From positions 434,001-498,000 of the forward strand of contig NZ_CP117709.1 of assembly GCF_028622875.1 (NCBI RefSeq): a stretch of DNA of 64,000 nucleotides. The letters are read 5' to 3'. Below the pieces are notes generated by a model. That model did no database searches and was not told the DNA's origin. It worked only from the letters and a program-made list of their open reading frames with translations. Each line of letters starts with the position of its first letter. Position 1 is the stretch's first letter. Both the position numbers and the translations under genes were made by a program. Positions 6,739 to 52,639 of the stretch are shown one piece after another. Source of the DNA: Streptomyces sp. MMBL 11-1 (GTDB lineage Bacteria > Actinomycetota > Actinomycetes > Streptomycetales > Streptomycetaceae).

Positions 6739-8046
6739 GTGCTGGTAGCTGGTCGGTACCGATTGGTATCCCCCATCGGTCGTGGCGGCATGGGCGAGGT
6801 GTGGCGCGCCACGGACGAGGTGCTGGGGCGCGCGGTGGCCGTGAAGCTGCTGTTGGGGGACCAGGCGGACGCCTCGGCGACCGCCCGCTTCCGGCTGGAG
6901 GCGCAGACCGCCGCCCGGTTGAGCCACCCGCACCTGGTGGCCGTGTTCGACTTCGGGGCCTGGGAGGACCGGTTCTTCCTGGTGATGGAGCTGGTCGAGG
7001 GGCAGAGCCTCGGCGACCTGCTGGCCGCCCAGGAGCGGGTCCATCCCGAACAGGTCGCCCTGATCGCGGGCCAGGCGGCCGCCGGGCTGGCCGCCGCGCA
7101 CCGCCAGGGCATCGTCCACCGCGACATCAAGCCGGGCAACCTGATGCTGGACGCGGATGGCTCGGTGAAGATCGGCGACTTCGGGATCGCCCAGTTCGTC
7201 GATGATCCCTCGACCGCGCTGACGACGGCCGGTCACATCGTCGGCACGAGCCTCTACCTGGCTCCCGAGCGGGCGCTGGGACGTACCGCTGACTCCGCGT
7301 CCGACATGTACTCCCTGGGGTGCGTCGTCTATCAACTGCTGCTCGGGCAGCCGCCGTTCCGCTCCGACACGGCGACCGCGACGCTGTACCAGCATGTCGA
7401 CACCCCGCCGGTCCCGCTGCGTCAGCGGGGCGTGGAGATCTCCGCCGCCTTCGACTCGTATCTCCTCGGACTGCTGGCCAAGCAGCCGGAGGAGCGGCCC
7501 ACCGCGCAGCAGGTCTCCGACTGGTTCCGCACCGACGCCTGGCGCGGCCGGCCGGAGCCCCTCCCGCTGCAGACGCCCTCGTCCCACCGGGCGCCCGCCC
7601 CGATGGCGCCGCAGCCCTCCCCCGGCGGGCCGCCGGCGCCGGTCGGCCCGACCACGTACCGGCTCCCGGGGCCCACGGGGCGAAGACGGCAGGCGCCGGC
7701 CCGATCGGCTCCGGCCCGTCGTCGCAGTACCCGTGAGGCGATACGACGGAGGCCCAGGGTGGCCAGCGTCATCGCGGGCACGGCGACGTTCCTGGCCGCC
7801 GTGTATCTCGGAATGATCCTCTTCTCCCCGGACTCCAGCTCCGCCGGAACGCCGGACCAGAGTCCGTCCTCGGGTCCTTCGCAGGACGTTCGCAACGGCG
7901 GGCAGCGGCCGGACCAGCAGGGCGGGCAGGACGGCGGCTCGCCGGAGGAGGGCCGGGAGAACCCGGGCGAGGGTCAGGGCCGAGGCGAGAACCAGGGACA
8001 GGGCCAGGGCCAGGAGGACCGGGACGAGGACGAGCGGGACGACTGA
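6739..8046 (+). CDS. Membrane-anchored Ser/Thr protein kinase
   Basis: 435 residues from GTG 6739. An Hanks-type kinase domain (about 5-265) has the glycine loop GRGGMGEVW, lysine in VAVKLL, catalytic HRDIKPGN, DFG and LAPERA. A Pro/Arg-rich linker leads to one membrane helix (about 340-363). The external tail of some 70 residues is low-complexity Gln/Gly/Glu/Asp (GQGRGENQGQGQGQEDRDED) with no PASTA or other known sensor domain. It probably phosphorylates cytoplasmic targets in response to an unknown signal. The 192 bases upstream contain no clear promoter. No partner gene is adjacent. Confidence 0.93.
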   Translation: MLVAGRYRLVSPIGRGGMGEVWRATDEVLGRAVAVKLLLGDQADASATARFRLEAQTAARLSHPHLVAVFDFGAWEDRFFLVMELVEGQSLGDLLAAQERVHPEQVALIAGQAAAGLAAAHRQGIVHRDIKPGNLMLDADGSVKIGDFGIAQFVDDPSTALTTAGHIVGTSLYLAPERALGRTADSASDMYSLGCVVYQLLLGQPPFRSDTATATLYQHVDTPPVPLRQRGVEISAAFDSYLLGLLAKQPEERPTAQQVSDWFRTDAWRGRPEPLPLQTPSSHRAPAPMAPQPSPGGPPAPVGPTTYRLPGPTGRRRQAPARSAPARRRSTREAIRRRPRVASVIAGTATFLAAVYLGMILFSPDSSSAGTPDQSPSSGPSQDVRNGGQRPDQQGGQDGGSPEEGRENPGEGQGRGENQGQGQGQEDRDEDERDD

Positions 8047-8098
8047 GTCCCGCCCGCTCCTCCCCCGCCCGCTCCGGTCCGCCGCACGCCGCCCGCCG

Positions 8099-9082
8099 TC
8101 ACCAGCGGTCGTGGACCTCCGCGCGGATCGACCGGTCGTACAGGTCCCGCACGGCGTCCAGCGTGGACTGCGGCAGCGGCGGCAGGGCGGCCGCCGCCGC
8201 GTTGGCGCGGGCCTGCTCCACCGAGCGCGCGCCGGGGATCACGCTGGTCACGCCCGGCTGCTGGATGATCCAGCGCAGCGCGGTCTGCGCGGGGGTGGCG
8301 CCCTGGGGAGCCAGCTCGGCGAACTCGGCGGCCGCGGCGACGCCGGTCGCGTAGTCGATGCCGGAGAACGTCTCGCCCTGGTCGAACGCCTCGCCGTGCC
8401 GGTTGTACGTGCGGTGGTCGTCGGGGCCGAAGACGGTGTCCTTGGTGTACCTGCCGGAGAGCAGGCCCGAGGCGAGCGGAACCCGGGCGATGATGCCGAC
8501 GCCCGCTGCTGCCGCCGCCGGGAGGACCTCGTCCAGCGGCTTGAGGCGGAACGGGTTGAGGATGATCTGCACGCTCGCGACGCCGGGGCGCGCGATGGCG
8601 GTCAGCGCCTCGGCGCAGGTCTCGACGCTCACCGCGTAGGCGGCGATCCGCTGCTCGGCGACCAGGGTGTCCAGGGCGTCGTAGACGGCGTCGGAAGAGT
8701 AGACGCCGGTGGGCGGGCAGTGCAGTTGTACGAGGTCGAGTGTGTCGGTGCCGAGGTTCGCGCGGGAACGGTCGTTCCAGGTACGGAAGTTGTCCAGGAC
8801 GTAGTTCTCCTCGACCTGGTCCGCGCGGCGGCCCATCTTGGTGGCGACGAGGACGTGGGCGTCGGGGCGGTTCTTCAGGTAGCGGCCGATGAGCTGTTCG
8901 CTGCGGCCGTCCCCGTACACGTCCGCGGTGTCGAAGAAGGTGACGCCGGATTCGACGGCCGCGTCGAGAATCCCGAACGCGTCGTCCTCCGCGATCTCGC
9001 CCCAGTCGCCCCCGAGCTGCCAGGTGCCCTGTCCGACGACCGAGACGTCACGGCCGGTCCTGCCGAGTGTGCGCTGTTCCAT
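8099..9082 (-). CDS. Aldo/keto reductase
   Basis: 327 residues from ATG 9082 (an in-frame GTG at 9091 is an alternative). The catalytic tetrad of the NADPH-dependent AKR barrel is visible: Asp51 and Tyr56 in FFDTADVYGDG, Lys82 in ATKMG, His121 in VQLHCPP. The C-terminal NADP-binding portion SVIPGARSVEQARANAAA is also typical. It reduces carbonyl compounds in the cytosol; the substrate is not deducible. It converges on the kinase gene, and the 52 bases between show no hairpin. Confidence 0.92.
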   Translation of the reverse strand: MEQRTLGRTGRDVSVVGQGTWQLGGDWGEIAEDDAFGILDAAVESGVTFFDTADVYGDGRSEQLIGRYLKNRPDAHVLVATKMGRRADQVEENYVLDNFRTWNDRSRANLGTDTLDLVQLHCPPTGVYSSDAVYDALDTLVAEQRIAAYAVSVETCAEALTAIARPGVASVQIILNPFRLKPLDEVLPAAAAAGVGIIARVPLASGLLSGRYTKDTVFGPDDHRTYNRHGEAFDQGETFSGIDYATGVAAAAEFAELAPQGATPAQTALRWIIQQPGVTSVIPGARSVEQARANAAAAALPPLPQSTLDAVRDLYDRSIRAEVHDRW

Positions 9083-9181
9083 GAGGATCACCCTATTCCG
9101 CTCCCGGGCCGGGGGTGGACGGCGGCAGGAGCACCTCTGCCACCGCCCACGTTTCGGGGCCGCCCCGGGGTGGGCCGGTGG

Positions 9182-10090
9182 TCAGTCGCCGGTCGTCACG
9201 CGGACGTAGTCGATGACCATCTGCTGCGGGAACCGCGTGCTGCCGTCGGGGTCGCCGGGCCAGTAGCCGCCGACCGCGAGGTTCAGGATGAGGAAGAAGG
9301 GCTTGTTGAACACCCACTGGTTGCCGCCCAGATCGGCCGGGGTGCGCCGCTGGAAGACCTGGCCGTCGACGGACCAGGTGATGGAGTCGGGCGCCCAGTC
9401 GACGGCGAAGGTGTGGAAGTCGTCGGCGAACGCCTGCCCGTCGGGCAGCGTGTACGCGGCGCCGATGCCACCCGAGCCGGAGTAGCCGGGACCGTGCAGG
9501 GTGCCGTGAACGGTGCCCGGTTCGAAGCCGACGTTCTCCATCACGTCGATCTCACCGCTGTTCGGCCAGCCGACGTTGCCGATGTCGTCGCCCAGCATCC
9601 AGAACGCGGGCCAGATGCCCTGGCCGCGCGGGATCTTGATACGCGCCTCGACGTGACCGTAGGCGGCGGCGAACTTGCCGGAGGTGTTGAGCCGGGACGA
9701 GGTGTACTCACAGGTCCCGTACCAGCACTGGTAGTTGCCCGGGTTCTCCTTCCGGGCGGTGATCACGAGGTTGCCCTGGCCGTCGAGCGCGGCGTTGTCG
9801 TTGCCCGGCGTGTAGAACTGCCGCTCGTGGTTGTTGACGTTGTCGCCGGTCTCGATCTGCCACTTGCCGCCGTCCACGGCGGCGCCGGCCGGTCCGTCGA
9901 ACTGGTCCTCGAAGGCGACGGCCCGCGCCCCGGGCCCGGGAGCCGGGGAGCCGGCGGCGGGCGCGGCGGACGCTCCCCCGGGGAGCGCGGTCAGGATGGC
10001 GGAACAGCAGAGCAGCGAGGCCGCGTGGAGAGCGACGCGGCGGCGCCGGGAGACGCTGCGCGCGGTGGAGTGCGGGGGGTGCACGGTCAT
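9182..10090 (-). CDS. Secreted glycoside hydrolase family 16 (laminarinase-like endo-beta-glucanase)
   Basis: 302 residues from ATG 10090. An export signal (SRRRRVALHAAS, hydrophobic core, ASAAPA cleavage region near 43) precedes a GH16 jelly-roll domain. The catalytic motif EIDVME is complete: Glu180 nucleophile, Asp182, Glu185 acid/base. The flanking stretch IWPAFWMLGDDI is typical of bacterial beta-1,3- or 1,3-1,4-glucanases. No carbohydrate-binding module is attached. The enzyme probably degrades beta-glucan outside the cell. A strong promoter with an operator-like element in its spacer lies upstream, suggesting sugar-responsive repression. Confidence 0.92.
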   Translation of the reverse strand: MTVHPPHSTARSVSRRRRVALHAASLLCCSAILTALPGGASAAPAAGSPAPGPGARAVAFEDQFDGPAGAAVDGGKWQIETGDNVNNHERQFYTPGNDNAALDGQGNLVITARKENPGNYQCWYGTCEYTSSRLNTSGKFAAAYGHVEARIKIPRGQGIWPAFWMLGDDIGNVGWPNSGEIDVMENVGFEPGTVHGTLHGPGYSGSGGIGAAYTLPDGQAFADDFHTFAVDWAPDSITWSVDGQVFQRRTPADLGGNQWVFNKPFFLILNLAVGGYWPGDPDGSTRFPQQMVIDYVRVTTGD

Positions 10091-10184
10091 CACATCACTT
10101 CGCGTGGGGGGCATGCGCATGACAGATCAACACCGAGAGGTGAACGGTTGGGGCGATCACCTCTGGCGCATATTTCACTACTTG

Positions 10185-10213
10185 ATTTAAGGGAGCGCCC
10201 CAGGAGCCGTCAA
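10185..10213 (-). promoter_or_regulatory. Promoter of the GH16 gene with LacI-type operator in the spacer
   Basis: On the minus strand TTGACG (10213-10208), 17-base spacer, TTAAAT (10190-10185): close to the vegetative consensus. The spacer contains GGGGCGCTCCC, close to the CebR-type operator TGGGAGCGCTCCCA (10 of 14 matches). A LacI-family repressor bound there would block the promoter. No LacI gene is in this window. Confidence 0.6.
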
Positions 10214-10361
10214 TAACCTGGTCCGGACCGGAGAGGGACCGGCACGCCCCAGAGGCATATGCGCCTGAAGGCGGTGGGCTCACCGTGCGATCCGTCCCGG
10301 GCAGCCGCAGAGTGGAGACACGGACCGGCGGGACGGGCCGGGGCCACGAAGGGAGCACGAC

Positions 10362-10925
10362 GTGGAGAACAACGGCACACCGCGGCCCCACTTCGTCGTG
10401 CAGATCCATGACGCGCGGCGCCTGCACTTCGATTTCCGGCTGGAGGTCGACGGCGTACTGAAGTCCTGGGCGGTGCCGCGCGGGCCCTCCGAGAACCCCA
10501 GCGACCGCCGGCTCGCCGTGCCGACGGAGGATCACGCCCTGGAGTACCGCGAGTTCGAGGGAGTCATCCCCCGGGGCGAGTCCGGCAGCGGCACGGTCAT
10601 CGTCTGGGACCAGGGCACCTACCGGCCGCTCGGGCACGACGGACAGGGCGGGTCCCTCCCGTTCTCCGAGTCCCTGGCGCTCGGCCACGCGACGTTCTGG
10701 CTGTACGGGTCGAAGCTGCACGGCGAGTTCGCGCTGACCCGCGTCCAGAAGGGCGACGAGCCGGACAGCGGCGGCCACGAGGCGTGGCTGCTGATCAAGG
10801 CCAACGACCGCCTCGCCGTGCGCGGCAGGCCCGGCTCCCCGGACCCGTACCACGCCCGGTCCGCCCGTACGGGACGGACGCTGCACCAGGTCGCGGCAGC
10901 GGCGTCCCGGGGTGCCGGGGACTGA
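10362..10925 (+). CDS. LigD-type 3'-phosphoesterase domain protein
   Basis: 187 residues from GTG 10362, preceded by GAAGGGAG. It is a stand-alone version of the phosphoesterase domain of bacterial ligase D: HFVVQIHDARRLHFDFRLE, then LKSWAVPRGPS and VPTEDHALEYREFEGVIP, with conserved His, Asp and Arg metal/phosphate ligands. In LigD the domain trims 3' ends during non-homologous end joining. Here no ligase or polymerase domain is attached, so it may work in trans with Ku/LigD encoded elsewhere. It converges on the HEAT-repeat gene. Confidence 0.88.
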   Translation: MENNGTPRPHFVVQIHDARRLHFDFRLEVDGVLKSWAVPRGPSENPSDRRLAVPTEDHALEYREFEGVIPRGESGSGTVIVWDQGTYRPLGHDGQGGSLPFSESLALGHATFWLYGSKLHGEFALTRVQKGDEPDSGGHEAWLLIKANDRLAVRGRPGSPDPYHARSARTGRTLHQVAAAASRGAGD

Positions 10926-10958
10926 CCGCACACCCTCGGGCGGTGCGCGCGTGCCCCG

Positions 10959-13900
10959 TCAGCTCCCCGCACCGGAGATCTCGGCGAGCACGTCCGTGTA
11001 GAGCGGCCGCCGGTCGGGCCGGGCGTGGGCCGCGGCCCGGCGCAGGACCGGGACCGCCGCGCCGCCGAAGCCGGCGAGCGCGTCCCGGGCGGCTTTGCGG
11101 ACCACCGGCTTCGCGTGGTCGAGGAGCCGGACGAGGCCGGGCAGCGCGGGCTCCCAGGCGGCGCGGCCGAGCGTCCGCGCCGCCATGCGCACCACGTCCG
11201 GCAGCGGATCGGACAGCAGGAGCGCGGTGAGCCGGGCATGGGTGCCCCGGTCGAACAGGGCGCGCGACGTCCGGTGTGCGTGCAGGCGTACCCCGGCGCG
11301 CGGGTGACGCAGCAGCTCCTCGACCAGCGCGCGCAGTTCCGGAGGCGGTCCAGCTCCGGGCGCGGGAGCGTACTCCTCGACGAGGCGGGTGAGGACCTGG
11401 CGGGTCTGCTCGGGTGTTCCCGCACGGGCGAGGCCGAGCAGCTCCGGCAGCGACGGACGGTCCGCCGGGGCGTCCGCCGGATCGCGGAACGGGGTGCGCA
11501 GGGCGGCGAGCGCGGCAGCGTCCTCGTGTTCCGCCCCGGTCGCGCGCAGGGGGCCGTCGACGAGGACGAGCGCGTCGGCCAGGGCGTCGCGGCCTTCGGT
11601 ACGCAGCCGGCGCTCGACCCTGGTCAGCGCGGGGGTCCGGAGCAGCCGCACACCGGTCAGCAGGTCGAGGAGCCCGAGGCCGCCCGCCTCCACGCGCGGC
11701 ACGAGAACGGGGGCGAGGACATCGGCGGGCACGCCGCGCAGCGTGGCGCGGGCCGCCTCGTGCACGGCGGGCGAGCCGTGTTCCCACCATCCGACGATCA
11801 GCGGGAGGAGCGGCGGCAGGTCGTCCTCGGGCAGCCGCGCCGCCCAGCGCAGCGCCCTCTCGGGCAGCACCCCGCGGGAGGCCAGTTCCACGAGGGCGGG
11901 GTGTCGGCCGTCGCCCTCTTCGGGGTGGGCGCCCGGATGGGCCCCGGCGGGGCCCTCCGGGTGTGCGAGGAGATCCAGGGTGGCGGTGGCGGGGAGGACG
12001 TCGGTCCGGCCGCGCAGATACGCCCGCAGCACGGCGCTCGACACCCCAGGCTCGGGCCAGTCGAGCAGGGCCCGCGCGGCGGCGGTCCGGCGTTCCGGCC
12101 GCTCCGCGTCCAGCATGGCCAGCAGCCGGGACCGCTGGGCGGCCGACCGGGGCTGGTCGAGATCGTCCGCCCGCACCGGGCGCGACGAGGCGGGGGAGGC
12201 CGTGCCCGCCGCCCTGGTCTCGGCGATGATCCACTCGGGTGCGTCGATCGGCTGGAGCTCGGTCATCCAGTCGACGAGTCGCCCGCGCACGTCGGGCGCG
12301 GCCTTCGGGTACGCCTCGACGAGCGCGGAGAGCAGTTCCCGGGACGTGGGTGCGGTGGGGGTACGCCCGGCACCGTCCGTGACGGAGGCACGCCCGGGTC
12401 CGGCCCCGGCGGCGACATCACGTGCCCGGAACTCCGCCAGCGCCTCGGGGGCCCGTACCGACTCGGTCAACTCGGCACGCCAGGCGGCTGGTTCATCGAC
12501 GATCGCTTGCTCCCCCGGTACGCCGAACGCCTCCCGGAGCACGGCGGGCGCGGCGTTCCAGGGGTCCACGCCGAGGTGGGCGGCGTCCAGGGCCCGGTCG
12601 AGATCGGCGCGGACGAGCACCGCGCCCAGCTGACGGAGCAGCGTGAGGCCGCACACGGCCGTCCCGGGCCGCGGCGATCCGGCCGGGCCGACGGGAGGCA
12701 GGGCGCGCAGCCCTTCGACGACGCCGAAACGCTGGACGGCGGACAGGTGCGGCGCGAGGGCGTGCAGGACCTCGATCAGGTCCCCGGCCGCCGGCCCCGC
12801 GGCGGTGGCCCGGGGAGACCCGTCCGCCGCTCCCCCGCCCATGGCGGCGTCGAACGCGTCGGTCACCGTACCGGCGTGCCGGGCGAGAACCGCCACCTCA
12901 TCGGCGGACCACGGCCCCGGGCACAGGCGCAGGGCGCACCGCAGGACGCGGCTGCGGAGCCCGGTCTCGACGGTGCTGCCGGCCAGGCCGAGCCAGTCAC
13001 CCAACAGCGCGCGGGCCGCCGGGCGTTCGTGGGCGGCAACGGCGTCCGGGAGGGCGGACCGCCGGGCGATGCGCAGAGCGAGCGCCGGGTCCCAGCCGGA
13101 GCGCAGCAGAGCCGTCACCTCGGGGTCGGACCTGTCCGGGGGCCCGCCCGGGGCGGCGGGCGGCGTGGGCACACCGTGCCGGGCCAGGGGTTCCGCCAGG
13201 TCCTCCACGGAACCGGCGGCGAGCCGCACACCGCCGTCGGCGACGAGCGCCAGCAGGGCGGGGACGACCGGCGATCCCCCCGCGTCGAGGGCGAGCACGG
13301 CGCGGGCGGTCACCTCCTGGTCGAGGGCGCGGAGCAGGAGGCGGCGGGTGCGCTCGCCGCGAGCCGCTTCGGCGGCGGCGAGGAGGGTCGCGGCACGGGC
13401 GCGGCCCACGACGGCGCGCAGCGCCCGGGTCAGCGCGGACCGCAGCCCCGGGTTGTCGTCGCGGCCGAGCGCCCGCAGGAGATGCGGGACGGCGGACGGC
13501 GCGCCCGCTTCGATGAGGGTGGCCGCCGCGGTCTTCCTGATGTTCATGTTCGGGTGGTGGAGACAGCGGGCGATCTCCTCGGCCGCCCAGCGGGCCCGTG
13601 CCGCGCCCAGCGCCGACAGGGCCGCGCGCACGGTCCGGATGTCCGCGTCGCGGGTGAGCGGGACGAGGGTCGCGGACAGGGCCCGCGCGTCCTCGCCCGA
13701 GGCGTCGTGGGCCAGCAGGGCGATGACGTGCTTGCGCACGTGCGGGTCGCGGTCGCGCAGCAGGCGGTGGACCCGGGCGCGGGTGGACGGGGTCGCCGGG
13801 ACCTGGAGCAACGCCTTGAGGAGCACCGCCCGTTCGCCGCCGGTGAGCCCGGGGCGCTCCAGCAGGCCGAGTACCGTCGCGGTGAGGAACGCGTGGCCCG

Positions 13901-15863
13901 CTCCGGTGTCGTCCGGTGCGTCGAGCAGACAGACCGGCCTGATCCGCCGCCGCCTCCACAACCGGCTCCCGTGGGCGCGCATCGCGTCCAACACCTCGGG
14001 CGGCAGCTCCGGTTCGCCGTCCGGGCGGGCCGGTCCCACAGGTGTGGAGCCGGGGCCCGGGGCGTCCGTACCCGGCCCGAGCCGGCCTGCGGCGAGGTCG
14101 CGCACGATACGCAGGAGCAGGTCGGCCAGGGGGACGCCCCCCGAGGAGACGGTTCCCGCGCCGGCGTACGCCGCGATCCGGCAGAAAGCCGCCACGGGGG
14201 CGTCCACGTCCACACGGGCGCGCAGAACGGCCAGTTCCCGCTCGTCGGGGGCTCCGAGATCGGCCTCGATGCCACGCGGGAGGTCCTGGGGGGCGAGGCG
14301 GGCGAGGAGGTCCTGCCGCTGCCCGGGTTCGCGGGTGAGGTGCCACAGGAGCGCGAGCGCCCGGTCGCGTACGGGGCGCAGTTCGCGGGCGACCGGGAGG
14401 CGTGGCGGGCCGTCCGTGGCCGTGGGCGGTCCGTCCGCCGGGCCGCCGACGCCGAACGCGCGGGCCAGCGCCGAGCGCGTACGGTCCCCGCCGATGGCTT
14501 CCAGGGCGTCCAGGGCGGCCGACGGGGCCCCGGGAAGCAGGGCCAGCACCGCTTCCTCGGCGGACGGCGGTCGCAGGACGCGGATCGCGGCGAGGAACGG
14601 GCGCAGGGCGCGGACGGCCGGAAGGAGTCGGGTGACGGCCTCGCCGATGGGAACGTCCGCGGCCCCCTGCCGCCACAGGGCGATGAGCAGTTCCAGGCGG
14701 CGTGGCCAGTCGGGGGCGGTGGGCGGGGCGTCGGTGAGGGCGTCGAACAGCGGGCGACGGGAGGTGTAGAGGACCGTGGCGAGGTCCTCCGCCGGAAGCG
14801 TGTGGTCGGCCAGGGCCAGGGAGAGGAGCGGGCCGACGTCCGGGTCCGCCGGGAAATGGCCGCGCCGGTGCAGTGCGCGCAGACAGGTCAGCACAGGTCC
14901 GGCCAGCAGGAGGGGATCCGTGGCGGCCAGGGCCACCAGGCGGCCGATGTCGGCGCGTTCCGCCCGTTCGCCCAGGAGTTCCACGGCCTGACCGCGCAGG
15001 GCCGGAGCCTCGGCCGGATTCTCCGCCGTGCCCCACAGCACCGTGGAGTGACCGTGCCGGGCCGCGGCGCGGAGGGAGGCGGCCGCGAGCGCGGCCGACG
15101 CCCCGTCGCGGTCGGCGGACCGTCCGGCCAGGGCCCTCGCCGGACGGGTCAGCGGTCGTGCGTCCACGGGGGTGACCGCCGCCCAGGGCTCGGCGAGTTC
15201 GCGCAGCGCGTCGGTCACGACGCCGGGGTCGGGCGAGTCAAGCAGCCGCACCAGATGGCCGCGTACGAACGCCGGTGCGAGCAGTCCGGCGTGCAGCCCG
15301 TCGCGGGCCAGCCGCAGCGCCTCGGTCCCCAGGACCGGGTCCCCGGTGTCGACGAGTTCGGCCACGAGCCGGTCGGGGCGGTACGCCCCGGCGGCGTCTA
15401 TCTCGCACACGGCCCGGTAGAGGAGCTCGCCCGCCGGTTCCGTACGGAGGACCGCCGGGTCGCCGAGGAGTTCCGCCCGCAGCCACGCGATCCGTACCCG
15501 GGCGGGCAGCGCGGCCGCACGCCAGTCGGGCAGCGGGTGCCGCGGCTTCCGCGCCCGGAGCCGGGCGTGGAGGCCCGCGAGCAGGAGGGACTCCTCGGGC
15601 GAAGCCCCGGGGGTGTCGGGCAACAGGCGGGCCACCGGGGCGTGATGACCTGCCCCGCTCGCTCCCTCTCCACCGGTGTCCGCAGTGTCCGCGCGTTCGG
15701 CGAGGAGGGTGAGGCCGAGGTGCCGGATCCGGGGCGCGGGGTGCCGGACCATCCGGCCGAGCGGTTCCGGCGGACAGGTACGGGCATCGAGGCACCGGGC
15801 GAGGAGCGCGGCGTCGGCACGGTCGAGGGCGTCGGCGATCGTTTCGTCCGGCGGGGTGGTCAC
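10959..15863 (-). CDS. Giant HEAT-repeat protein, unknown function
   Basis: 1634 residues from GTG 15863. Almost the whole length consists of paired helices with HEAT/armadillo-like repeats, for example HHPNMNIRKTAAATLIEAGA and the C-terminal block HAKPVVRKAARDALAGFGG. There is no signal peptide, membrane segment or recognisable catalytic motif, so it is probably a large cytoplasmic solenoid scaffold. The start lacks a Shine-Dalgarno sequence but has a TANNNT box seven bases upstream, suggesting a leaderless mRNA. It is divergent from an FAD oxidoreductase. An equally long antisense frame is a G+C-bias shadow. Partners are not indicated by the context. Confidence 0.85.
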   Translation of the reverse strand: MTTPPDETIADALDRADAALLARCLDARTCPPEPLGRMVRHPAPRIRHLGLTLLAERADTADTGGEGASGAGHHAPVARLLPDTPGASPEESLLLAGLHARLRARKPRHPLPDWRAAALPARVRIAWLRAELLGDPAVLRTEPAGELLYRAVCEIDAAGAYRPDRLVAELVDTGDPVLGTEALRLARDGLHAGLLAPAFVRGHLVRLLDSPDPGVVTDALRELAEPWAAVTPVDARPLTRPARALAGRSADRDGASAALAAASLRAAARHGHSTVLWGTAENPAEAPALRGQAVELLGERAERADIGRLVALAATDPLLLAGPVLTCLRALHRRGHFPADPDVGPLLSLALADHTLPAEDLATVLYTSRRPLFDALTDAPPTAPDWPRRLELLIALWRQGAADVPIGEAVTRLLPAVRALRPFLAAIRVLRPPSAEEAVLALLPGAPSAALDALEAIGGDRTRSALARAFGVGGPADGPPTATDGPPRLPVARELRPVRDRALALLWHLTREPGQRQDLLARLAPQDLPRGIEADLGAPDERELAVLRARVDVDAPVAAFCRIAAYAGAGTVSSGGVPLADLLLRIVRDLAAGRLGPGTDAPGPGSTPVGPARPDGEPELPPEVLDAMRAHGSRLWRRRRIRPVCLLDAPDDTGAGHAFLTATVLGLLERPGLTGGERAVLLKALLQVPATPSTRARVHRLLRDRDPHVRKHVIALLAHDASGEDARALSATLVPLTRDADIRTVRAALSALGAARARWAAEEIARCLHHPNMNIRKTAAATLIEAGAPSAVPHLLRALGRDDNPGLRSALTRALRAVVGRARAATLLAAAEAARGERTRRLLLRALDQEVTARAVLALDAGGSPVVPALLALVADGGVRLAAGSVEDLAEPLARHGVPTPPAAPGGPPDRSDPEVTALLRSGWDPALALRIARRSALPDAVAAHERPAARALLGDWLGLAGSTVETGLRSRVLRCALRLCPGPWSADEVAVLARHAGTVTDAFDAAMGGGAADGSPRATAAGPAAGDLIEVLHALAPHLSAVQRFGVVEGLRALPPVGPAGSPRPGTAVCGLTLLRQLGAVLVRADLDRALDAAHLGVDPWNAAPAVLREAFGVPGEQAIVDEPAAWRAELTESVRAPEALAEFRARDVAAGAGPGRASVTDGAGRTPTAPTSRELLSALVEAYPKAAPDVRGRLVDWMTELQPIDAPEWIIAETRAAGTASPASSRPVRADDLDQPRSAAQRSRLLAMLDAERPERRTAAARALLDWPEPGVSSAVLRAYLRGRTDVLPATATLDLLAHPEGPAGAHPGAHPEEGDGRHPALVELASRGVLPERALRWAARLPEDDLPPLLPLIVGWWEHGSPAVHEAARATLRGVPADVLAPVLVPRVEAGGLGLLDLLTGVRLLRTPALTRVERRLRTEGRDALADALVLVDGPLRATGAEHEDAAALAALRTPFRDPADAPADRPSLPELLGLARAGTPEQTRQVLTRLVEEYAPAPGAGPPPELRALVEELLRHPRAGVRLHAHRTSRALFDRGTHARLTALLLSDPLPDVVRMAARTLGRAAWEPALPGLVRLLDHAKPVVRKAARDALAGFGGAAVPVLRRAAAHARPDRRPLYTDVLAEISGAGS

Positions 15864-45268: not shown

Positions 45269-47107
45269 TCAGCTCCGCCGGGCCTCCTCGGCGTTGCGCC
45301 AGACCGTCAGGTCGATGGTGATGTAGCGGCTGGGATCGTTGGCACCCGACTTGCCGCGATAGGTCACCACGGCGATGTGCCCGGCCTTGCTGAGCACACA
45401 GATCTGCGATCCGGACGTGAGCTGGTCGAGTCCGATCTTCTCGGTGAAGCGGGTCTCCTCGCGGCAGACCTTCAACGAGCCCTTCTGCGAGTTCTTCAGC
45501 ACGACCAGCTTCCCGTTCGCGCTGCCCACCTGCTCGTCGCCGAAGAGGGAGTCCCGGTAGAAGTAGAAGTCCTTCTTGCCGTACATGACGCCGCTGTCCT
45601 CGTCCTCCAGCGGCCGGGGCGGGTTGTCGGCGAGCTGCAGCGCGTAGTTCGCCGTGACGTCGATGCCCTTGTACGCGACAGGCTCGGGATCGACCGGCTT
45701 CTCCCGGCCCTCGCCCCCGGAACCGCCCCCGCTCGCACCGCCGTTGGAGGACGCCTCGGACCGGTCGCCCTTGCCGGAGGTGTCGGGGTCCTCCGGCAGC
45801 AGCGCTCCGATGACACCGAGGACGACCAGCGCGCCGAAGACCGAAGCGGCGACGATCAGACCTGTCCGCTTGGGGCGCGGCGCGGCGGGCTGGAAACCGG
45901 GCGAGACCCAGCCGGGCTGCTGGTGGCCGGGCTGAGCGAATCCGGACGGGTGGTGGGGCGGCGGAGTGGCGTAGCCCTGGGGGCGGGTGTTCTGCTGCCA
46001 GTGACCGGTCGGCACGGTTCCCGGCGCCCCGGGAGCCCCCGGCGCTCCGGGTGCGGCCGGCCCGGTCTGGGTGGGTGCGGCGGCCACGGCGTAACCGGTC
46101 GGGGTGTACGGGTGGGCGGGGCCCGGTCCCGGGGGCTGCGAGGAGTGCTGCGTGGGCGTGGGCCCGGTGGTGGGCAGTGGTGGCGGGGTGGGTGCGGGGG
46201 CGGGGAGCCGGTGCCGTTCGGTGATGGAGCCGGCGACTGCCTGCGGGAGCCAGTCCTCGCCCTGGCGCAGTGGTTCGGGGGAGATCTCGTGGCACATCCG
46301 GATGATGTCGGTCAGGGCGGGGCGGTCAGCGGCGTCGCGGCTGAGGCAGCGGGTGACCAGGGGGCGCAGCTCGTCGGGCAGCCGGCTGAGGTCGGGGTCC
46401 TCGTGGACGATCCGGTAGAGGACCGCGTGCGAGGGGCCGTCGCCGAACGCGGGTGCGCCGATCGCGGCGTAGGCGACGATCTGGCCGAGGGCGAAGACGT
46501 CGGTGGCCGGGGTGACGGTGCCGACGGCCGCCTGCTCCGGTGACATGAACGCCGGGGTGCCGACGCTGACGCCGGTGCCGGTGAGGGCGGTCGCGTCGGC
46601 GGCCCGGGCGATACCGAAGTCGATCACCCGGGGCCCGTCGGCGGCGAGCAGGACGTTCGCGGGCTTCAGGTCACGGTGGACGATGCCCGCACCGTGGATG
46701 ACACCGAGCGCCTCGGCCACCCCGATGGTCAGCAACAGGACACTTTGCAAAGGGAGTCGGCCGTGCCGGGTCACCGCGTGCGCGAGCGAGGGGCCCGGCA
46801 CATAGGCCGTCGCCAGCCACGGCTGCGCCCCCTCGGTGTCATCATCGATGACCGGCGCGGTGTACAGGCCCTGCACCCGCTGCGCGGCCCGCACCTCCTG
46901 CCGGAAACGCCGCCGGAACTCCGGATCCTCGCTGAACTCCGCCCGGATCACCTTGATCGCGAGAGGACGGCCGCCCGGCGTGTAGGAGAGGTACACCTTG
47001 CCCATACCGCCCGCGCCCAGCACGGCGGCCAGCCGATAGCCGCCCACGACAGCCGGATCATCGGCCTTGAGCGGCTGGAACGGGTCGGTCGAAGGCGCGC
47101 TGCTCAT
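45269..47107 (-). CDS. Receptor-type Ser/Thr protein kinase
   Basis: 612 residues. Kinase domain (about 20-280): GAGGMGKVYL, lysine in LAIKVI, catalytic HRDLKPAN, DFG, MSPEQA. A Pro/Gly/Gln-rich linker (about 300-410, with GAPGAPGAPG) precedes one membrane helix (about 413-433: TGLIVAASVFGALVVLGVIG). The external domain of about 180 residues has no PASTA repeats; it contains two Cys and many Lys/Tyr. It should phosphorylate cytoplasmic proteins in response to an extracellular cue. It faces the glycan operon; any link is speculative. Confidence 0.93.
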   Translation of the reverse strand: MSSAPSTDPFQPLKADDPAVVGGYRLAAVLGAGGMGKVYLSYTPGGRPLAIKVIRAEFSEDPEFRRRFRQEVRAAQRVQGLYTAPVIDDDTEGAQPWLATAYVPGPSLAHAVTRHGRLPLQSVLLLTIGVAEALGVIHGAGIVHRDLKPANVLLAADGPRVIDFGIARAADATALTGTGVSVGTPAFMSPEQAAVGTVTPATDVFALGQIVAYAAIGAPAFGDGPSHAVLYRIVHEDPDLSRLPDELRPLVTRCLSRDAADRPALTDIIRMCHEISPEPLRQGEDWLPQAVAGSITERHRLPAPAPTPPPLPTTGPTPTQHSSQPPGPGPAHPYTPTGYAVAAAPTQTGPAAPGAPGAPGAPGTVPTGHWQQNTRPQGYATPPPHHPSGFAQPGHQQPGWVSPGFQPAAPRPKRTGLIVAASVFGALVVLGVIGALLPEDPDTSGKGDRSEASSNGGASGGGSGGEGREKPVDPEPVAYKGIDVTANYALQLADNPPRPLEDEDSGVMYGKKDFYFYRDSLFGDEQVGSANGKLVVLKNSQKGSLKVCREETRFTEKIGLDQLTSGSQICVLSKAGHIAVVTYRGKSGANDPSRYITIDLTVWRNAEEARRS

Positions 47108-47561: not shown

Positions 47562-49481
47562 TCATCCGGAGTCGGATCCTCCGCCTCCGCCTCCGCCGAT
47601 CGATCCCCCGACGGACCGGATGAGGGCCCGGGCCTCGTCCTCCAGGCCCCTCGTCACCGTACGGTCCCGGAATCCGTGCGCGGCCAGTCGCGTCGCGAGC
47701 GCGTCGAAATAACCCGAAGCCGTCAGGACATGCCTCGGCACGTCCAGCCTGCCGCCGTCGGCCTGCTCGCCCCGGGACGCCTCTGCCGCGGCCATGACCT
47801 GCGCGATCTCGACGTACACCTCCTCCCGTGTTCCGTCCGGCAGGTCGGACCGGGACAGTTGCCGGAGCAACCGGTCTCCCGCGGCGGTCACCTCGTTGAG
47901 CAGGCGCACGTTCCGGTTGACCGTGAGGCCGACGTCGGCGGCGGTGATCGCGGCGGCGAGCGAGCCGTGTCCCACGACCGGATGGCGGGCGCGGCTGGGC
48001 AGATAGGCGGGCAGCTCCATCGCTCCGAGACAGTTCAGCGCCGGCCTGAAGCATGGGTGCACATGGAACTCGTGCTCGTCGGGCAGCGGCGGCGTGGCGC
48101 TGCCGCCGGCGTAAACGGTGTCGTTCCCACGCTTCACCCCGATGAAGCCGACTCCGTAGAGGGCATCGATGACGCCTTGGGTGGTGAGACTCTCGGTGTA
48201 GTCGGAGAACTCCCGGTGCAGGGTTTCCCTGCGGCCCTCGAAGCGTTCCTCCAAGGTGGACCGCATCACGACGTAACCCGTGTTCTCGAAAAGCGGGAAG
48301 AGAGAACGCAGGAAGGGATGATTGATCAGGTATTCCTTGGCCAGGTCCTGGAGCTTCCAGCGCGAGAACTGGTCCGTGGCGGCCAGCACGTCATCCTCGG
48401 AAATCGTGTAGCGACCCGCCTCGTCGGCGATGTTACGACAGACGTTGAGAAATTGGATGGTGTCGCGCGGGCGCGGCAACGAGCGCCGGAAAATGTAATC
48501 GGACGTCCGCTCGCCCATGACGCTCACCGGGAACAGCCCCTCCCACAGCTCATGCCTGGTGAGCGGAAGTCCGATCGAGGCTCGCGCCCGGGAGAGCGCC
48601 AGGTCCTCCAGGGCTTCCCGCGTCCAGGAAATGCGGATCTCGTCGCTGTGGAATTTGTCGCCGTCACCGAAGTTCAGGGTGTCGTAGATGTCCGCACGGA
48701 TGAACAGTGCCGTGCGGACAGCGTTGCCGTAGAAGGAGACGGCGTGCTTCGCGGCCAGCAGCAGACCCGTCACCAGTGCGTGGCTCTCGGGCTCGATGGT
48801 CCACACCTGCTCCAACTGGTCGACGAGGAGCAGGAGCGGTGGATGCAGGCGGGCGCAGTCGAGATCGGCGAACCCGGCCCGCACCCCCGCTTCCAGGACA
48901 TCGAGCTGGCGGGAGGCCTCCGCACCCTCGGAAGCGCCGCCGATACCCAGAGCCGCTTCGACACCGAAGGCCTTGAGCGAGAGATCAGCGGACTGGAGCC
49001 GCCCGATGCCTCGGCGAAGCCTCTCGTACAGACGCGCGTCGTCCGACTCTCCGTTGGCCTCCAGGAAGGAACGCACCGCACGGACGGAACCCGGCACTCG
49101 GCGGCCGTGGGCGGCTCGTGCGTGGCCGGTGAGATGGCGTGCCGCGTGAACGGCGAAAAGGTAACGCCAGATCAGCGATTTGGCCGTGTCCGGAGTAAGT
49201 CCCTGCAGCGCGAAACGACGGATCTCGTCTCCGGCCGCGTCGTCCGGCGCGATGAGGACCGAGGCGCCAGGGTGGCCCTCAGGAGTGGCCAGTTGACGGC
49301 AGATCGCGCTCTTTCCCGAGCCTTTTCGGCCGATGATGAGAGACTTCCGGCCGGACAGTGCCTCACGATAGGCGTATGTGGGACGGAAGACCGGCCCTTT
49401 CAGGAGGCCGTCCCGCAGGTCCGTTTCGGCGTCATCACGCCCGAAGAACAGAATACTGACCGGCCCTGTATCCGGCTGCAC
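47562..49481 (-). CDS. P-loop ATPase resembling the Sll1717 family
   Basis: 639 residues from GTG 49481 behind GGGGGAAG. SILFFGRDDAETDLRDGLLK opens the domain; Walker A is LIIGRKGSGKSAI (about 46-58) and Walker B LLLLVDQLEQVW (about 180-190). The rest is helical STAND/AAA-like with TLEERFEGRRETLHREF and a Gly/Ser tail. The opening block and Walker A look like the group annotated as P-loop ATPase Sll1717, found in variable genomic loci and often suspected in conflict systems. It is divergent from a coiled-coil membrane protein and kinase. Family call by eye; activity is ATP-dependent signalling or remodelling by inference. Confidence 0.7.
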   Translation of the reverse strand: MQPDTGPVSILFFGRDDAETDLRDGLLKGPVFRPTYAYREALSGRKSLIIGRKGSGKSAICRQLATPEGHPGASVLIAPDDAAGDEIRRFALQGLTPDTAKSLIWRYLFAVHAARHLTGHARAAHGRRVPGSVRAVRSFLEANGESDDARLYERLRRGIGRLQSADLSLKAFGVEAALGIGGASEGAEASRQLDVLEAGVRAGFADLDCARLHPPLLLLVDQLEQVWTIEPESHALVTGLLLAAKHAVSFYGNAVRTALFIRADIYDTLNFGDGDKFHSDEIRISWTREALEDLALSRARASIGLPLTRHELWEGLFPVSVMGERTSDYIFRRSLPRPRDTIQFLNVCRNIADEAGRYTISEDDVLAATDQFSRWKLQDLAKEYLINHPFLRSLFPLFENTGYVVMRSTLEERFEGRRETLHREFSDYTESLTTQGVIDALYGVGFIGVKRGNDTVYAGGSATPPLPDEHEFHVHPCFRPALNCLGAMELPAYLPSRARHPVVGHGSLAAAITAADVGLTVNRNVRLLNEVTAAGDRLLRQLSRSDLPDGTREEVYVEIAQVMAAAEASRGEQADGGRLDVPRHVLTASGYFDALATRLAAHGFRDRTVTRGLEDEARALIRSVGGSIGGGGGGGSDSG

Positions 49482-49535
49482 GCTTCCCCCGCCCTGCTGT
49501 GCTGTCCATGAATCTTCAGAGTAGGCCCCGCCGGG

Positions 49536-49548
49536 CGGGAACGTCCCG
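49536..49548. promoter_or_regulatory. Candidate operator between the ATPase and membrane-protein genes
   Basis: CGGGA-ACG-TCCCG, an inverted repeat in the 139-bp divergent region, adjoining GATAAT (49548-49553), a possible -10 box for the plus-strand gene. On the minus strand TACTCT (49523-49518) could serve the ATPase gene. No good -35 for either. Confidence 0.35.
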
Positions 49549-49620
49549 ATAATGGGTGCATGAGCTCGGCCGACAGTGCCGGGCCCGGCCGTCATGTTGC
49601 GCGCACGCCCAGGGGGACCG

Positions 49621-51441
49621 GTGCAGGGACCTGAAGATCCGCAGGAGGACCTGGTGGCGTTACTCGACGCGCTCTCCGATGTGGGGCGCGATGTCACCAC
49701 GCTCAAGGAGCGGCAGGAACAGGACCGTTCCGGGGCGGCCCGCGAGCTGAGCTCCCTGCGGACGAACGTCAGCGGTATTCAGAACCGGCTGGAGAGCGTG
49801 GCCGACGAGGTGTCCCGCACGGAGACGTCATTGCGTGCCGTGCGGAAGACCACGGAGGAGACGCACAAAGCGCTGGAGGACTTCGTCGAGCGCTACGGCC
49901 GCGACCAGATCGTGGCCCACGCGCAGGCGGACCTGACCCGGCTGACCATCGAATGGACGGCCCGGTTCGCTCAACGGCAGCACACGCGTGCGCTCGCCCG
50001 GGGGCTGGCGCACGCGTTGACGGAAGACGCTCTCGCGCGGCAGCTCACGGACAGTGCGACGATCGAGGCGTGTCTCAAGGAGCAGTTCCTCCTGGAGCCG
50101 ACGTTCTGGCTCGCGCCCGCCGTTCTGGCGGTGGCCGCCGAGCTGACGGGCGATTCACGGAAGGCCGCGCGGGCCCGCAGTCACGCCCTGACGCTCGGCC
50201 AGAACAAGGCCACCTTGTTCTTCGCGCTGATCGCCTCCCGCCGCAAGATGCAGGCGGAGGCGGCCCATTGGATGGACTCGTACCTCGGCGGGCTGGACGC
50301 CTCCCACCTGGGTGAGGAGTTCCGCGTGGTTCTGGAAGCCGTGGCCTGCGCGGAACTGGGGTACGACGCGCTGTCCTACGCGCGTCAGGCGATGAACCGC
50401 TGGGACCGGGAGAGGAACGCCCGGATCTACGCCCGGCACCAAGGGGGCAACGTGGCGAACCTGATCCGGTGGGAGCCCTGGATCGTCCGACGGACCGAGG
50501 TCGCCTCGACGGGGTTCGACGCACTGCGCCGACTGTCCGGTGACGGCTGGGAGCTGTTGGAGGAGGGCTGGGAGACGGCTTCGGCGGTGCAGGCGACGGC
50601 CGGGTTCCTCCGCGAGTCGTACTCGGAGCAGCCCACCGTGGACACGGGGAACCACCGGTCGGACACCGCGCTGCGACACCTGATCGGCCAGCTCGACCCC
50701 GATGAGTCCGAGGTCCAGGAGCAGATGCGGCGGCTCAAGAGGATCATCGCCGACGGGGGCCGCACCCCGCCGGAAGAGATGTCCGGCGTGGTCGCGGACG
50801 CGACAGACTTCGGAACGCTCCTGGAGCAGGCCGTCTTCGAGCCCGAGGCGGCGGACCTGGAATATCCCGCCCGGCTACTCGCCCTGCACAGCGCGTGGCC
50901 GAGTCTGCGAACCGCCGTCGCCATGCTGACGCGCCGTTCGCGGTCGCTGGTACCGGACCACCTGGACCTCCATGTGGACGGCTGGAGCTGCCGCCTGACC
51001 ACCTCGTCGAGCACTCCGGACGAGCGGGAACGGCTGTTGCGCGAGCTGGTGACGTACGTGGACGATCGGACGTCGGCGAGCACGCGTGCGGTCGCTCCGC
51101 TGTGGCCGCGCATTCTCGGTGGTCTGGCCTGCGCGCTCCTCGGAGTGATGCTCGGCCTGTGGCTGCGGGGCGGCGTGGGCGGCATCGTCATCACCGTGTC
51201 CCTGTTCGTGCTGGTCTACGCCGTTTGGGGAGTGGTCAGCGTCCCCGTACGCCGCCTTCTGATCCGGCAGGACGGAGCCAGACAGCGGACCCGGGCGGCA
51301 GCCGATCTCACGGCCGCCTTCGACCAGCATGATGCGCTGATGTACCAGTGGCAGAGCGGTCTCGCCACAGCGGCCCGGTTCGGTTCCTGGTCGCCCTCTC
51401 CGGGATACGGGTCGGTGCCACGACAGGCCGACACACCGTGA
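49621..51441 (+). CDS. Coiled-coil protein with C-terminal membrane hairpin, unknown function
   Basis: 606 residues from GTG 49621, with AGGGGGA ahead (ATG 49594 is an alternative). A coiled coil (about 15-90: LKERQEQDRSGAARELSSLR, VSRTETSLRAVRKTTEETHK) is followed by a helical middle with TPR-like pairs, two membrane helices (about 497-514 and 520-538) and a basic cytoplasmic tail. No family recognised. Codon 14 is TTA (49660-49662), the rare bldA-dependent leucine codon. The GTG of the kinase gene overlaps its stop, so the two are translationally coupled. Probably a membrane-tethered sensor or effector controlled by the kinase. Confidence 0.75.
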   Translation: MQGPEDPQEDLVALLDALSDVGRDVTTLKERQEQDRSGAARELSSLRTNVSGIQNRLESVADEVSRTETSLRAVRKTTEETHKALEDFVERYGRDQIVAHAQADLTRLTIEWTARFAQRQHTRALARGLAHALTEDALARQLTDSATIEACLKEQFLLEPTFWLAPAVLAVAAELTGDSRKAARARSHALTLGQNKATLFFALIASRRKMQAEAAHWMDSYLGGLDASHLGEEFRVVLEAVACAELGYDALSYARQAMNRWDRERNARIYARHQGGNVANLIRWEPWIVRRTEVASTGFDALRRLSGDGWELLEEGWETASAVQATAGFLRESYSEQPTVDTGNHRSDTALRHLIGQLDPDESEVQEQMRRLKRIIADGGRTPPEEMSGVVADATDFGTLLEQAVFEPEAADLEYPARLLALHSAWPSLRTAVAMLTRRSRSLVPDHLDLHVDGWSCRLTTSSSTPDERERLLRELVTYVDDRTSASTRAVAPLWPRILGGLACALLGVMLGLWLRGGVGGIVITVSLFVLVYAVWGVVSVPVRRLLIRQDGARQRTRAAADLTAAFDQHDALMYQWQSGLATAARFGSWSPSPGYGSVPRQADTP

Positions 51442-52592
51442 GCGGCCACCTGGTGGCCGACCGCTATCGGCTGGAACACCTGCAGGGAAGCGGCGGCATG
51501 GGAGACGTCTGGCTCGCGCTGGACACACATCTGGACCGGCCTGTCGCCATCAAGTTCCTCGCGCTGAACCGGCTGCACGAGCGCCACGACAACCTGCCCG
51601 GACTGACCGCGCGGGAAACGAACCGGTTCCTGCGGGAAGCACGGGCGTTGGCCCGAATCAACAGCCCGCATGTCGTCACCGTTCACGACCAGGGCGAGCA
51701 CGACGGACGTATCTACCTCGTCATGGAGCAGGTAGAAGGACGAGCGCTGACGCGTCTCATGGGAGAGGGCACGCCGGCGACTCTGGCCCAGACCACCCGC
51801 TGGGGAGCCCAGGTGTGCGAGGGTCTGGCCGACGCCCACGAGGTGGATGTCGTCCACCGGGACGTCAAGCCCGCCAACATCATGATCACCGGACGCAGCG
51901 ACGTGAAGCTGGTCGACTTCGGGCTCGCCCGCCTGATCGACAACACCGTCACCCATGGCACTGGCCTGACCTGGCTCTACGCCTCTCCCGAGCGGTGCGA
52001 AGGCCGGCCCGGTGATCATCGCACCGACCTGTACTCCCTGGGCTGCGTCCTCTACGAGATGCTGACCGGCCGACCGCCCTTCGGAGATACGGAGACAGCG
52101 CTGTTGGCCATCGCGAACATGCATCTGCATGCGGTTCCCGCCGCGCCCCAGGACGTGCGCCCGGGCGTCCCCGCCGGGCTCGGCGATCTGGTGCTGCATC
52201 TGCTCGCCAAGAATCCGGACGACCGTCCGAAAGACGCCCGGTCGGTAGCCCGCCTCATTCACCAGGTCGAGCATGTTCCCGAGGCCCCGCCTTCCGGGAC
52301 CGTCGTGCTCTCCGTCGACCCGCATGTCAATCCCGACTACATGGAGCGGATCCGCGAGCTGGAAAGCATGATCGACCGGCTCCGGTCGACGCACCGCGCG
52401 ACGGATCCGGTCGTGCTCGACGCGCGGATGCAACTCGCGGACATCACCGGGGAGTCCGGTGACACGCGCGGGGCGATCACGCTGTACCGGACGCTGGCCG
52501 GAGAATGCCGTGCGGATCTCGGCCCTTACGACACCCGCACCCTGGACGCGTTCGAGGCGATGGCCCGATGGATCTCCGGCTCCGGCCGGTAG
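51438..52592 (+). CDS. Soluble Ser/Thr protein kinase with C-terminal helical repeat
   Basis: 384 residues from GTG 51438 (GTGA overlap with the membrane protein). Kinase domain (about 8-275): GSGGMGDVWLA, lysine in VAIKFL, HRDVKPANIM, DFGLARL, YASPERC. No membrane helix. The tail (about 300-384) has a short coiled coil (MERIRELESMIDRLRS) and one TPR-like pair (ITGESGDTRGAITLYRTLAG). It probably phosphorylates the coupled membrane protein or the divergent ATPase. It ends at a perfect terminator. Confidence 0.93.
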   Translation: MSGHLVADRYRLEHLQGSGGMGDVWLALDTHLDRPVAIKFLALNRLHERHDNLPGLTARETNRFLREARALARINSPHVVTVHDQGEHDGRIYLVMEQVEGRALTRLMGEGTPATLAQTTRWGAQVCEGLADAHEVDVVHRDVKPANIMITGRSDVKLVDFGLARLIDNTVTHGTGLTWLYASPERCEGRPGDHRTDLYSLGCVLYEMLTGRPPFGDTETALLAIANMHLHAVPAAPQDVRPGVPAGLGDLVLHLLAKNPDDRPKDARSVARLIHQVEHVPEAPPSGTVVLSVDPHVNPDYMERIRELESMIDRLRSTHRATDPVVLDARMQLADITGESGDTRGAITLYRTLAGECRADLGPYDTRTLDAFEAMARWISGSGR

Positions 52593-52607: not shown

Positions 52608-52639
52608 GTGGGTCCGCAGGAGCGCTCCTGCGGACCCAC
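52608..52639. terminator. Perfect 32-bp palindrome, bidirectional terminator
   Basis: GTGGGTCCGCAGGAGC (52608-52623) and its exact complement 52624-52639, between the convergent kinase and acyl-CoA dehydrogenase genes. Fifteen bases after the kinase stop. Confidence 0.8.

Follow-up and report, generated by a model that had tools for sequence, protein, structure and literature searches.

We analyzed a stretch of 64,000 nucleotides from the 8.5-Mb genome of Streptomyces sp. MMBL 11-1 (positions 434001-498000; this whole stretch is referred to as the window), in which a first-pass annotation had singled out three genes: a P-loop ATPase (P0001), a membrane protein (P0002) encoded divergently from it, and a Ser/Thr kinase encoded directly after P0002. 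This trio is one version of a real, conserved, strain-variable cassette, which is of a known general kind, undescribed as far as we searched, and in our proposal serves as a signaling/effector unit. Its features, with window coordinates and amino acid (aa) positions, are as follows.

Genes and control region of the locus

47562-49481, minus strand: P0001, Sll1717-family P-loop ATPase (NF047389), 639 aa, GTG start at 49481 and stop at 47562
P0001 aa 7-486 and aa 523-625: AAA+ region nearest to Orc1/Cdc6, and C-terminal helical region (structure model)
48810-48836, minus strand: Walker B-like motif LLLLVDQLE, P0001 aa 216-224 (alignment A2)
49308-49331, minus strand: Walker A motif GRKGSGKS, P0001 aa 51-58 (alignment A2)
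49482-49620: divergent intergenic region, 139 bp, presumed to hold the promoters
49621-51441, plus strand: P0002, coiled-coil/TPR-like/membrane protein of no named family, 606 aa, GTG start
49741-50016, plus strand: long N-terminal helix of P0002, aa 41-132 (AlphaFold2 model; predicted local distance difference test score of the block about 60-80)
49963-50880, plus strand: TPR-like helical region of P0002, aa 115-420
51109-51237, plus strand: predicted membrane hairpin of P0002, aa 497-539, at the tip of helices 466-514 and 518-589 (hydropathy, AlphaFold2)
51438-52592, plus strand: soluble Ser/Thr kinase, 384 aa, GTG start, kinase domain aa 12-265 (Pkinase, 1.9e-46)
52608-52639: perfect 32-bp palindrome after the kinase gene (fold z -3.98)

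The identity and orientation of the ATPase gene were as the first-pass annotation had described them. P0001 matched NF047389, "P-loop ATPase, Sll1717 family," over the entire model (1-454 of 454) with 332.5 bits against a cut-off of 75, and its gene points away from that of P0002. In A2, an alignment of 15 ATPase sequences, the Walker A motif was identical at all positions except aa 55, which varied between S and A, and residues D221 and E224 of LLLLVDQLE, which we take to be the Walker B motif, were invariant. The model of P0001 is that of an AAA+ switch with Orc1/Cdc6 as the closest fold, BrxC, RdrA, and Dark ranking lower; membership in the ORC/Cdc6-like group, defined by an AAA+ domain with a C-terminal winged helix, is possible. 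The nSTAND1 model (PF20703) scored 25.1 bits, just under its gathering score of 27.1, which leaves P0001 outside the nSTAND1/STAND class. Distant relatives of P0001 were found in 229 plasmid records, mostly enterobacterial, with 22-24% identity at 71-74% cover among the 15 matches listed.

P0002 was likewise found to be a coiled-coil membrane protein, as first proposed, with hydropathy peaks at aa 497-515 and 521-539 and an AlphaFold model that combines a long N-terminal helix with a C-terminal helical hairpin. Because two C-terminal peaks were resolved in 6 of 20 relatives in a crude scan (one peak in 14 of 20), the hairpin is supported by the window sequence and its model only. The C-terminal helices showed weak similarity to alpha-pore-forming proteins, for membership of which we looked for a fold match clear of unrelated rows. 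No Pfam or NCBIfam model scored over its curated cut-off, PADLOC gave marginal matches (best, 0.034), and no relative of solved structure was found under E 0.5. Membership of P0002 in a known family was rejected, as no match was above cut-off.

The kinase start overlaps the P0002 stop by 4 bp, again as annotated, and hydropathy revealed no transmembrane segment in the protein. With the motifs GSGGMG, VAIK, HRD, and DFG all present, it is a Hanks-type Ser/Thr kinase. The PASTA kinase model NF033483 matched its kinase part only (273 bits, cut-off 450); since PASTA kinases are recognized by a membrane helix and PASTA repeats, the window kinase, having no transmembrane segment, does not belong with them. 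Two more Ser/Thr kinase-like genes were recognized by sequence in the window, at 45269-47107, just beyond the ATPase gene, and at 6739-8046.

The intergenic region has the annotated length of 139 bp. The inverted repeat reported within it did not survive scrutiny: the best arms measured 6 bp and were equaled in 491 of 1000 dinucleotide-preserving shuffles, and no arms of 7 bp or more occurred in the gaps of the window and nine relatives. An inverted repeat acting as an operator was ruled out as being at chance level. Blocks similar to CAGAGTAGG (49517-49525) and GATAATGGG (49548-49556) lie within the gaps of relatives; alignment of the ten gaps (window and nine relatives) displayed a look-alike (C/A)AG(A/G)NTAGG-like block, and the window shares (A/G)ATAATGG with the gaps of L053, L055, and L056 (loci are identified by L numbers). 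The palindrome at 52608-52639, which the first-pass annotation had overlooked, is likely a terminator common to the kinase gene and the convergent gene called at 52667. A link to RNA or tRNA was rejected, as the window contained no Rfam match at gathering score and no tRNA.

A core pair with an exchangeable divergent partner

We examined the recurrence of the three genes by scanning named genomes with A1, a P0002 profile of 17 sequences. A single-sequence genome scan gave no loci, and the alignment-based scan gave 21, all in named Streptomyces and Kitasatospora genomes. The kinase gene adjoined P0002 in 20 of these 21 (no kinase match was obtained at L071). The ATPase, P0002, and the kinase occurred together in 10 of the loci, and in 11 the divergent slot was occupied by SAVMC3_10250/DUF7019, a gene unrelated to the ATPase whose assignment (NF040893/DUF7019) was checked in two copies. 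Identities to the window proteins were 62-73% (ATPase), 39-50% (P0002), and 53-69% (kinase) in the 10 trio loci, and 36-40% (P0002) and 43-48% (kinase) in the 11 SAVMC-type loci. The ATPase of L054 is set apart by about 2.7 kb that includes other called genes, and at L073 two frames, IS3-type transposase-like by eye, lie between SAVMC3_10250 and P0002.

In a second sample of 392 Streptomyces genomes, with P0002 accepted at E 1e-60 or better, 21 P0002 loci were found in 20 genomes (5%). The kinase adjoined P0002 in 20 of the 21, and the divergent slot held the ATPase in 5, SAVMC3_10250 in 12 (one truncated, L139), and neither gene in 4. The two samples overlap, as 11 of 21 compared stretches were identical to named loci. 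Sequence-distinct loci numbered 32 (the 21 named loci, the window, L037, L038, L039, L139, L141, L210, L211, L214, L217, and L218), with the kinase in 30, the ATPase in 11, SAVMC3_10250 in 17 (one truncated), both divergent genes in none, and neither, within the stretch read, in 4. P0002 and the kinase form a conserved core pair, and the divergent slot holds the ATPase or SAVMC3_10250 in most loci, never both. The first-pass annotation, which had treated the three genes as one unit and proposed a co-occurrence search, was right in that the trio recurs at varying sites; the trio is not invariant, the ATPase being one of two alternative partners or missing. The ATPase family also occurs without P0002.

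Several observations bear on how tightly the ATPase belongs to the pair. When compared with 8 other Streptomyces Sll1717 relatives, the 11 trio ATPases formed a single branch (support 100/100), all 11 loci of which carry P0002 and the kinase. The distance matrices of the three trio proteins were correlated at r 0.943-0.971, a level reached in 0 of 5000 permutations each. Branch and correlations show joint descent of the trio, to which shared species history contributes. Against a fixed trio, among 150 Streptomyces genomes relatives of P0002 were present in 10 and of P0001 in 12, with the window genome as the only overlap. Outside the cassette, an Sll1717 ATPase gene followed by that of a kinase with a long C terminus was found at L046, L047, L049, and, by coordinates, L048, and a DivIVA domain scored over cut-off in the L049 kinase (two kinases scanned). 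SAVMC3_10250 scored over cut-off in 21 of 121 genomes; of its 24 places outside the cassette, 14 were read, and another kinase was close in six of these (L182, L184, L185, L186, L188, and L191), with L183 ambiguous. Both alternative partners thus neighbor kinases elsewhere too.

Other genes were noted at these outlying places. A gene that resembles arginyl-tRNA synthetase by eye lies close to the Sll1717 ATPase at L046, L050, and L052. At L182 (4063-10318), SAVMC3_10250, a 707-aa protein with a weak AbiU match (2.8e-7), and a kinase are encoded in a row, and the divergent gene matches LmuB models (1.1e-22); this is possibly another version of the cassette. SAVMC3_10250 relatives adjoin very large kinases of 1170-1512 aa at L184 (1664-6900), L188 (6160-10732), and L191 (2976-7131), and the L184 protein also matches the FxSxx-COOH system TPR protein.

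Within the cassette, the active-site Lys, the catalytic Asp, and DFG were retained in 21 of 21 kinases; HHD replaces HRD in 5 SAVMC-type copies, and the glycine loop is altered in the 10 SAVMC-type copies and in L056. The window and 9 of its 10 trio relatives permit the 4-bp stop/start overlap; in most SAVMC-type loci P0002 and the kinase lie about 45 nt apart.

The core was not part of what all Streptomyces genomes have in common; had it been, the first-pass proposal would have been undercut. Its occurrence in 20 of 392 genomes, together with 16 flank groups among 22 loci, marks it as patchy and variably placed, and the window had no two flanking genes in common with the other 21 loci at >50% identity. 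Four trio loci have common flanks, so not all copies are mobile. Relatives conserve an acyl-CoA-oxidase-like gene (by eye) that lies downstream of the window trio; 12 of them were read, out of 21 other genomes with a long match to this gene, and in none did the surrounding stretch encode another window protein, the trio included, at >45% identity. In the named scan the core P0002 family was confined to Streptomyces and Kitasatospora, and strong matches within the order came from the window genus only. Altered copies were also seen. L139 has a truncated SAVMC3_10250, no detected kinase, and a P0002 frame that is open and retains the hydrophobic segment; the L071 P0002 frame is open and lacks that segment; and P0016 of Streptomyces sp. 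35M1 is part of P0002 fused to a kinase without an N-lobe, perhaps through a deletion within the cassette.

Distant relatives of P0002, flanking genes, and known systems

Thirteen Streptomycetales loci (L040-L042 and L142-L151, from 16 weak P0002 places, with L018, L134, and L135 left out) encode distant P0002 relatives of 22-26% identity. Their genes include those for an AAA protein in 12, CHAT in 12, caspase in 11, and RES in 5 (counted over the sequence read, which for L147 stops early at a contig end), plus two small uncharacterized genes. Pfam confirmed AAA, Peptidase_C14, CHAT, and RES at L146, and nine proteins from L146, L149, and L143 matched no NCBIfam model above its own cut-off and no named system. 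An hhalign comparison of A1 with 11 of the distant relatives gave a probability of 99.9% (E 3.9e-34, 482 columns, 21% identity). Further P0002 matches came from tblastn: plasmids of Komagataeibacter (two) and Comamonas (one), a Fusobacterium record of 2.1 Mb deposited as a plasmid, and the Streptococcus satellite phage Javan368, at 20.8-24.7% identity over 79-87%. On the one Komagataeibacter plasmid that was read, and in Comamonas and Fusobacterium, a P0002-like gene is followed by a small gene, a C4-like gene, and the AAA gene, with C5-like at either end; in Javan368, P0002-like, C4-like, AAA, and C5-like genes make up the end away from the integrase. Between these operons and two Streptomyces loci, the AAA proteins are 43-74% identical. 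No P0002 relative was present among 28 pattern matches in viral contigs. Since caspase (C14) had no match in the window genome, the caspase link is one of the family and not of a partner present here. The operon copies are the following.

L219, 6974-11557: P0002-like AAA operon
L220, 1106-5629: P0002-like AAA operon
L221, 7513-12048: P0002-like AAA operon
L222, about 7974-12450: P0002-like AAA operon

We also examined the flanks of the cassette for defence genes. At L053, Gabija genes lie beside the ATPase (GajB, 2e-155; GajA, 2.4e-167 over model positions 145-588 of 589), and at L061 the gene after the kinase matches SduA in its C-terminal domain only (3.1e-67). PADLOC matched 59 families at 1e-20 on a set of 102 proteins flanking 16 of the 21 named loci; among the matches listed (25 of the 59 families) were GajA, GajB on two proteins, HEase, RecD-like, SduA, RT, and PDC-S68, corresponding to about 7-8 proteins if every name stands for a separate one. 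On 100 control proteins from one kind of locus, that beside the acyl-CoA-oxidase-like gene, 3 families matched at most 6 proteins. Kinases, module genes, and proteins of <120 or >1000 aa were removed from both sets, and the flanks of the window and of L058, L059, L063, L066, and L072 (near-duplicate contexts) from the first. The flank and control counts were not clearly separated, which makes the Gabija and SduA-like neighbors suggestive only. Separately, beside the SAVMC-type cassette at L065, ADP-ribosylglycohydrolase- and DarT-like genes were recognized by eye at 11302-15150 (no PADLOC match at 1e-5), together with a UvrD-like helicase gene (GajB model, 1.4e-21).

That the trio matches no known system, as first stated, was borne out: PADLOC, Pfam, and NCBIfam identified no named multigene system from the three proteins, apart from matches to generic kinase models and a weak one to PDC-M28C (P0001, 5.7e-07, 26.7 bits). 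This match to the PADLOC candidate PDC-M28 is partial, and the rest of that system was not looked for. A partial literature search gave no paper for "SAVMC3_10250," "Sll1717," or "DUF7019," and the titles and abstract openings it returned contained no such cassette. The best matches of the kinase were to PD-T4-6, a single-gene kinase system (7.6e-83); this match is generic, since the same models fit another Streptomyces kinase, at L046, equally (6.4e-93).

The closest likenesses were partial. Pgl of Streptomyces coelicolor (BREX type 2) is a defence system that pairs a protein kinase, PglW, with an ATPase, PglY, both reported to be essential for phage resistance (PMC4365076). The trio has a membrane protein instead, and its ATPase is of NF047389. 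The trio kinase scored 89 bits against the PglW model (cut-off 990), and the single PglZ match (PF08665) in the window genome was below cut-off and far from the window, at C1:6274265. On PglZ and PglW, which together with the ATPase and a methyltransferase define Pgl/BREX type 2, the locus is not such a system; PglX was not searched. PglY is the BrxC of BREX type 2. The P0002-like AAA operon, for which we found no name, also pairs a homologous membrane protein (the 482 columns above) with an AAA-class ATPase, but that ATPase is Cdc48/IetA-like, extra small genes are present, caspase, CHAT, and sometimes RES genes accompany it in Streptomycetales, and no kinase was noticed among the recurring genes. 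PADLOC IetA models matched its AAA proteins (2.1e-34 in the satellite phage and 3.3e-25 in Comamonas, the two scanned), whereas the trio ATPase had no IetA match; IetS, the other IetAS component, is a protease. The VMAP, EACC1, and CATRA systems, predicted conflict systems of multicellular prokaryotes including Streptomyces, are described in two reports (PMC7159879, PMC8195603) as NTPase switches with exchangeable partners, kinases, and caspases. The trio resembles them in having an NTPase, an exchange of partners, and a kinase, and in the sub-threshold nSTAND1 match of P0001. It differs in that its kinase keeps the catalytic residues, while most kinase domains of vWA-MoxR systems are disrupted, as stated in the first report (PMC7159879). 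MoxR, vWA, trypsin, caspase, and EACC1/CATRA components had no match in the three trio proteins (neighboring genes were not scanned).

Possible roles of the cassette

Taken together, these data lead us to propose, at somewhat less than even odds, that the cassette is a membrane effector or scaffold that is controlled by the kinase, takes exchangeable sensors, and probably acts in conflict or cell death. The resemblance to conflict or abortive-infection loci seen at first pass is partly supported: the conflict reading draws on the distant P0002 relatives found on plasmids and a satellite phage and on those encoded beside caspase, CHAT, and RES genes. PADLOC matches in the flanks did not clearly exceed those in the control. 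In the proposed mechanism, the product of the divergent gene, ATPase or SAVMC3_10250, would be the sensor or switch. The window ATPase would be a protein that binds ATP and perhaps also nucleic acid and that shifts its assembly state on a cue of invasion or damage, which it would relay to its TPR/coiled-coil partner P0002. The kinase, probably made by translation coupled to that of P0002, might phosphorylate P0002 and perhaps the ATPase, setting the threshold of P0002 or releasing it. P0002 would sit in the inner membrane through its hairpin with both ends in the cytosol, oligomerize, and act there by permeabilization or by recruiting a downstream effector; the affected hyphal compartment would most likely stop growing or die.

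A broader proposal, which we hold to be doubtful, is that the P0002 family is a cross-phylum coiled-coil/TPR membrane arm of ATPase-driven immunity that answers to at least three triggers, and that in the cassette the kinase gates a membrane effector whose sensor is exchanged by gene replacement in the divergent slot. The triggers named in this same doubtful proposal would be a Cdc48-like AAA operon (in a satellite phage and plasmids, and with caspase/CHAT/RES in Streptomycetales), the combination of an ORC/Cdc6-leaning ATPase and a kinase seen in the window, and that of a DUF7019 protein and a related kinase.

Of the alternatives, the one that survives best, although we consider it rather unlikely, is an accessory developmental or envelope-stress module in which a membrane scaffold and its kinase are tuned by the ATPase or the DUF7019 protein with no role in conflict. 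The many kinase-like DNA matches in the window genome, the lack of a caspase match there, and the restriction of the core P0002 family to Streptomyces and Kitasatospora are in keeping with it, and the placement of SAVMC3_10250 and Sll1717 genes near other kinases, one with DivIVA, suggests ordinary signaling. It fits poorly with a 5% distribution at varying sites, with the altered copies L139 and L071, and with the distant relatives on mobile elements and beside caspase, CHAT, and RES genes. That P0002 and the kinase are the working unit, and the ATPase a separate regulatory or selfish neighbor sharing only the promoter region, seems improbable to us: the exchangeable slot, the 4 of 32 loci where the sequence read has neither divergent gene, and the frequent occurrence of the ATPase family elsewhere speak for such independence, but the single ATPase branch, the constant company of P0002 and the kinase at its 11 loci, and the correlated distances speak against it. 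About equally improbable is a toxin-antitoxin-like unit in which membrane permeabilization by P0002 is held back by the kinase or ATPase, since L139 keeps an open P0002 with its hydrophobic segment despite an undetected kinase and a truncated SAVMC3_10250, and the pore similarity on which, along with the membrane segment, translational coupling, and the loss of the hydrophobic segment at kinase-less L071, the idea draws is weak.

If the proposed reading of a kinase-controlled membrane effector or scaffold is true, P0002 would be an undescribed membrane component common to several ATPase-linked systems, to which Streptomyces Ser/Thr kinases would be tied. The cassette would then offer a natural sensor-exchange experiment, with the same P0002 and kinase combined with two unrelated divergent partners, and would give a testable role to Sll1717, SAVMC3_10250/DUF7019, and P0002, three families of uncharacterized function.

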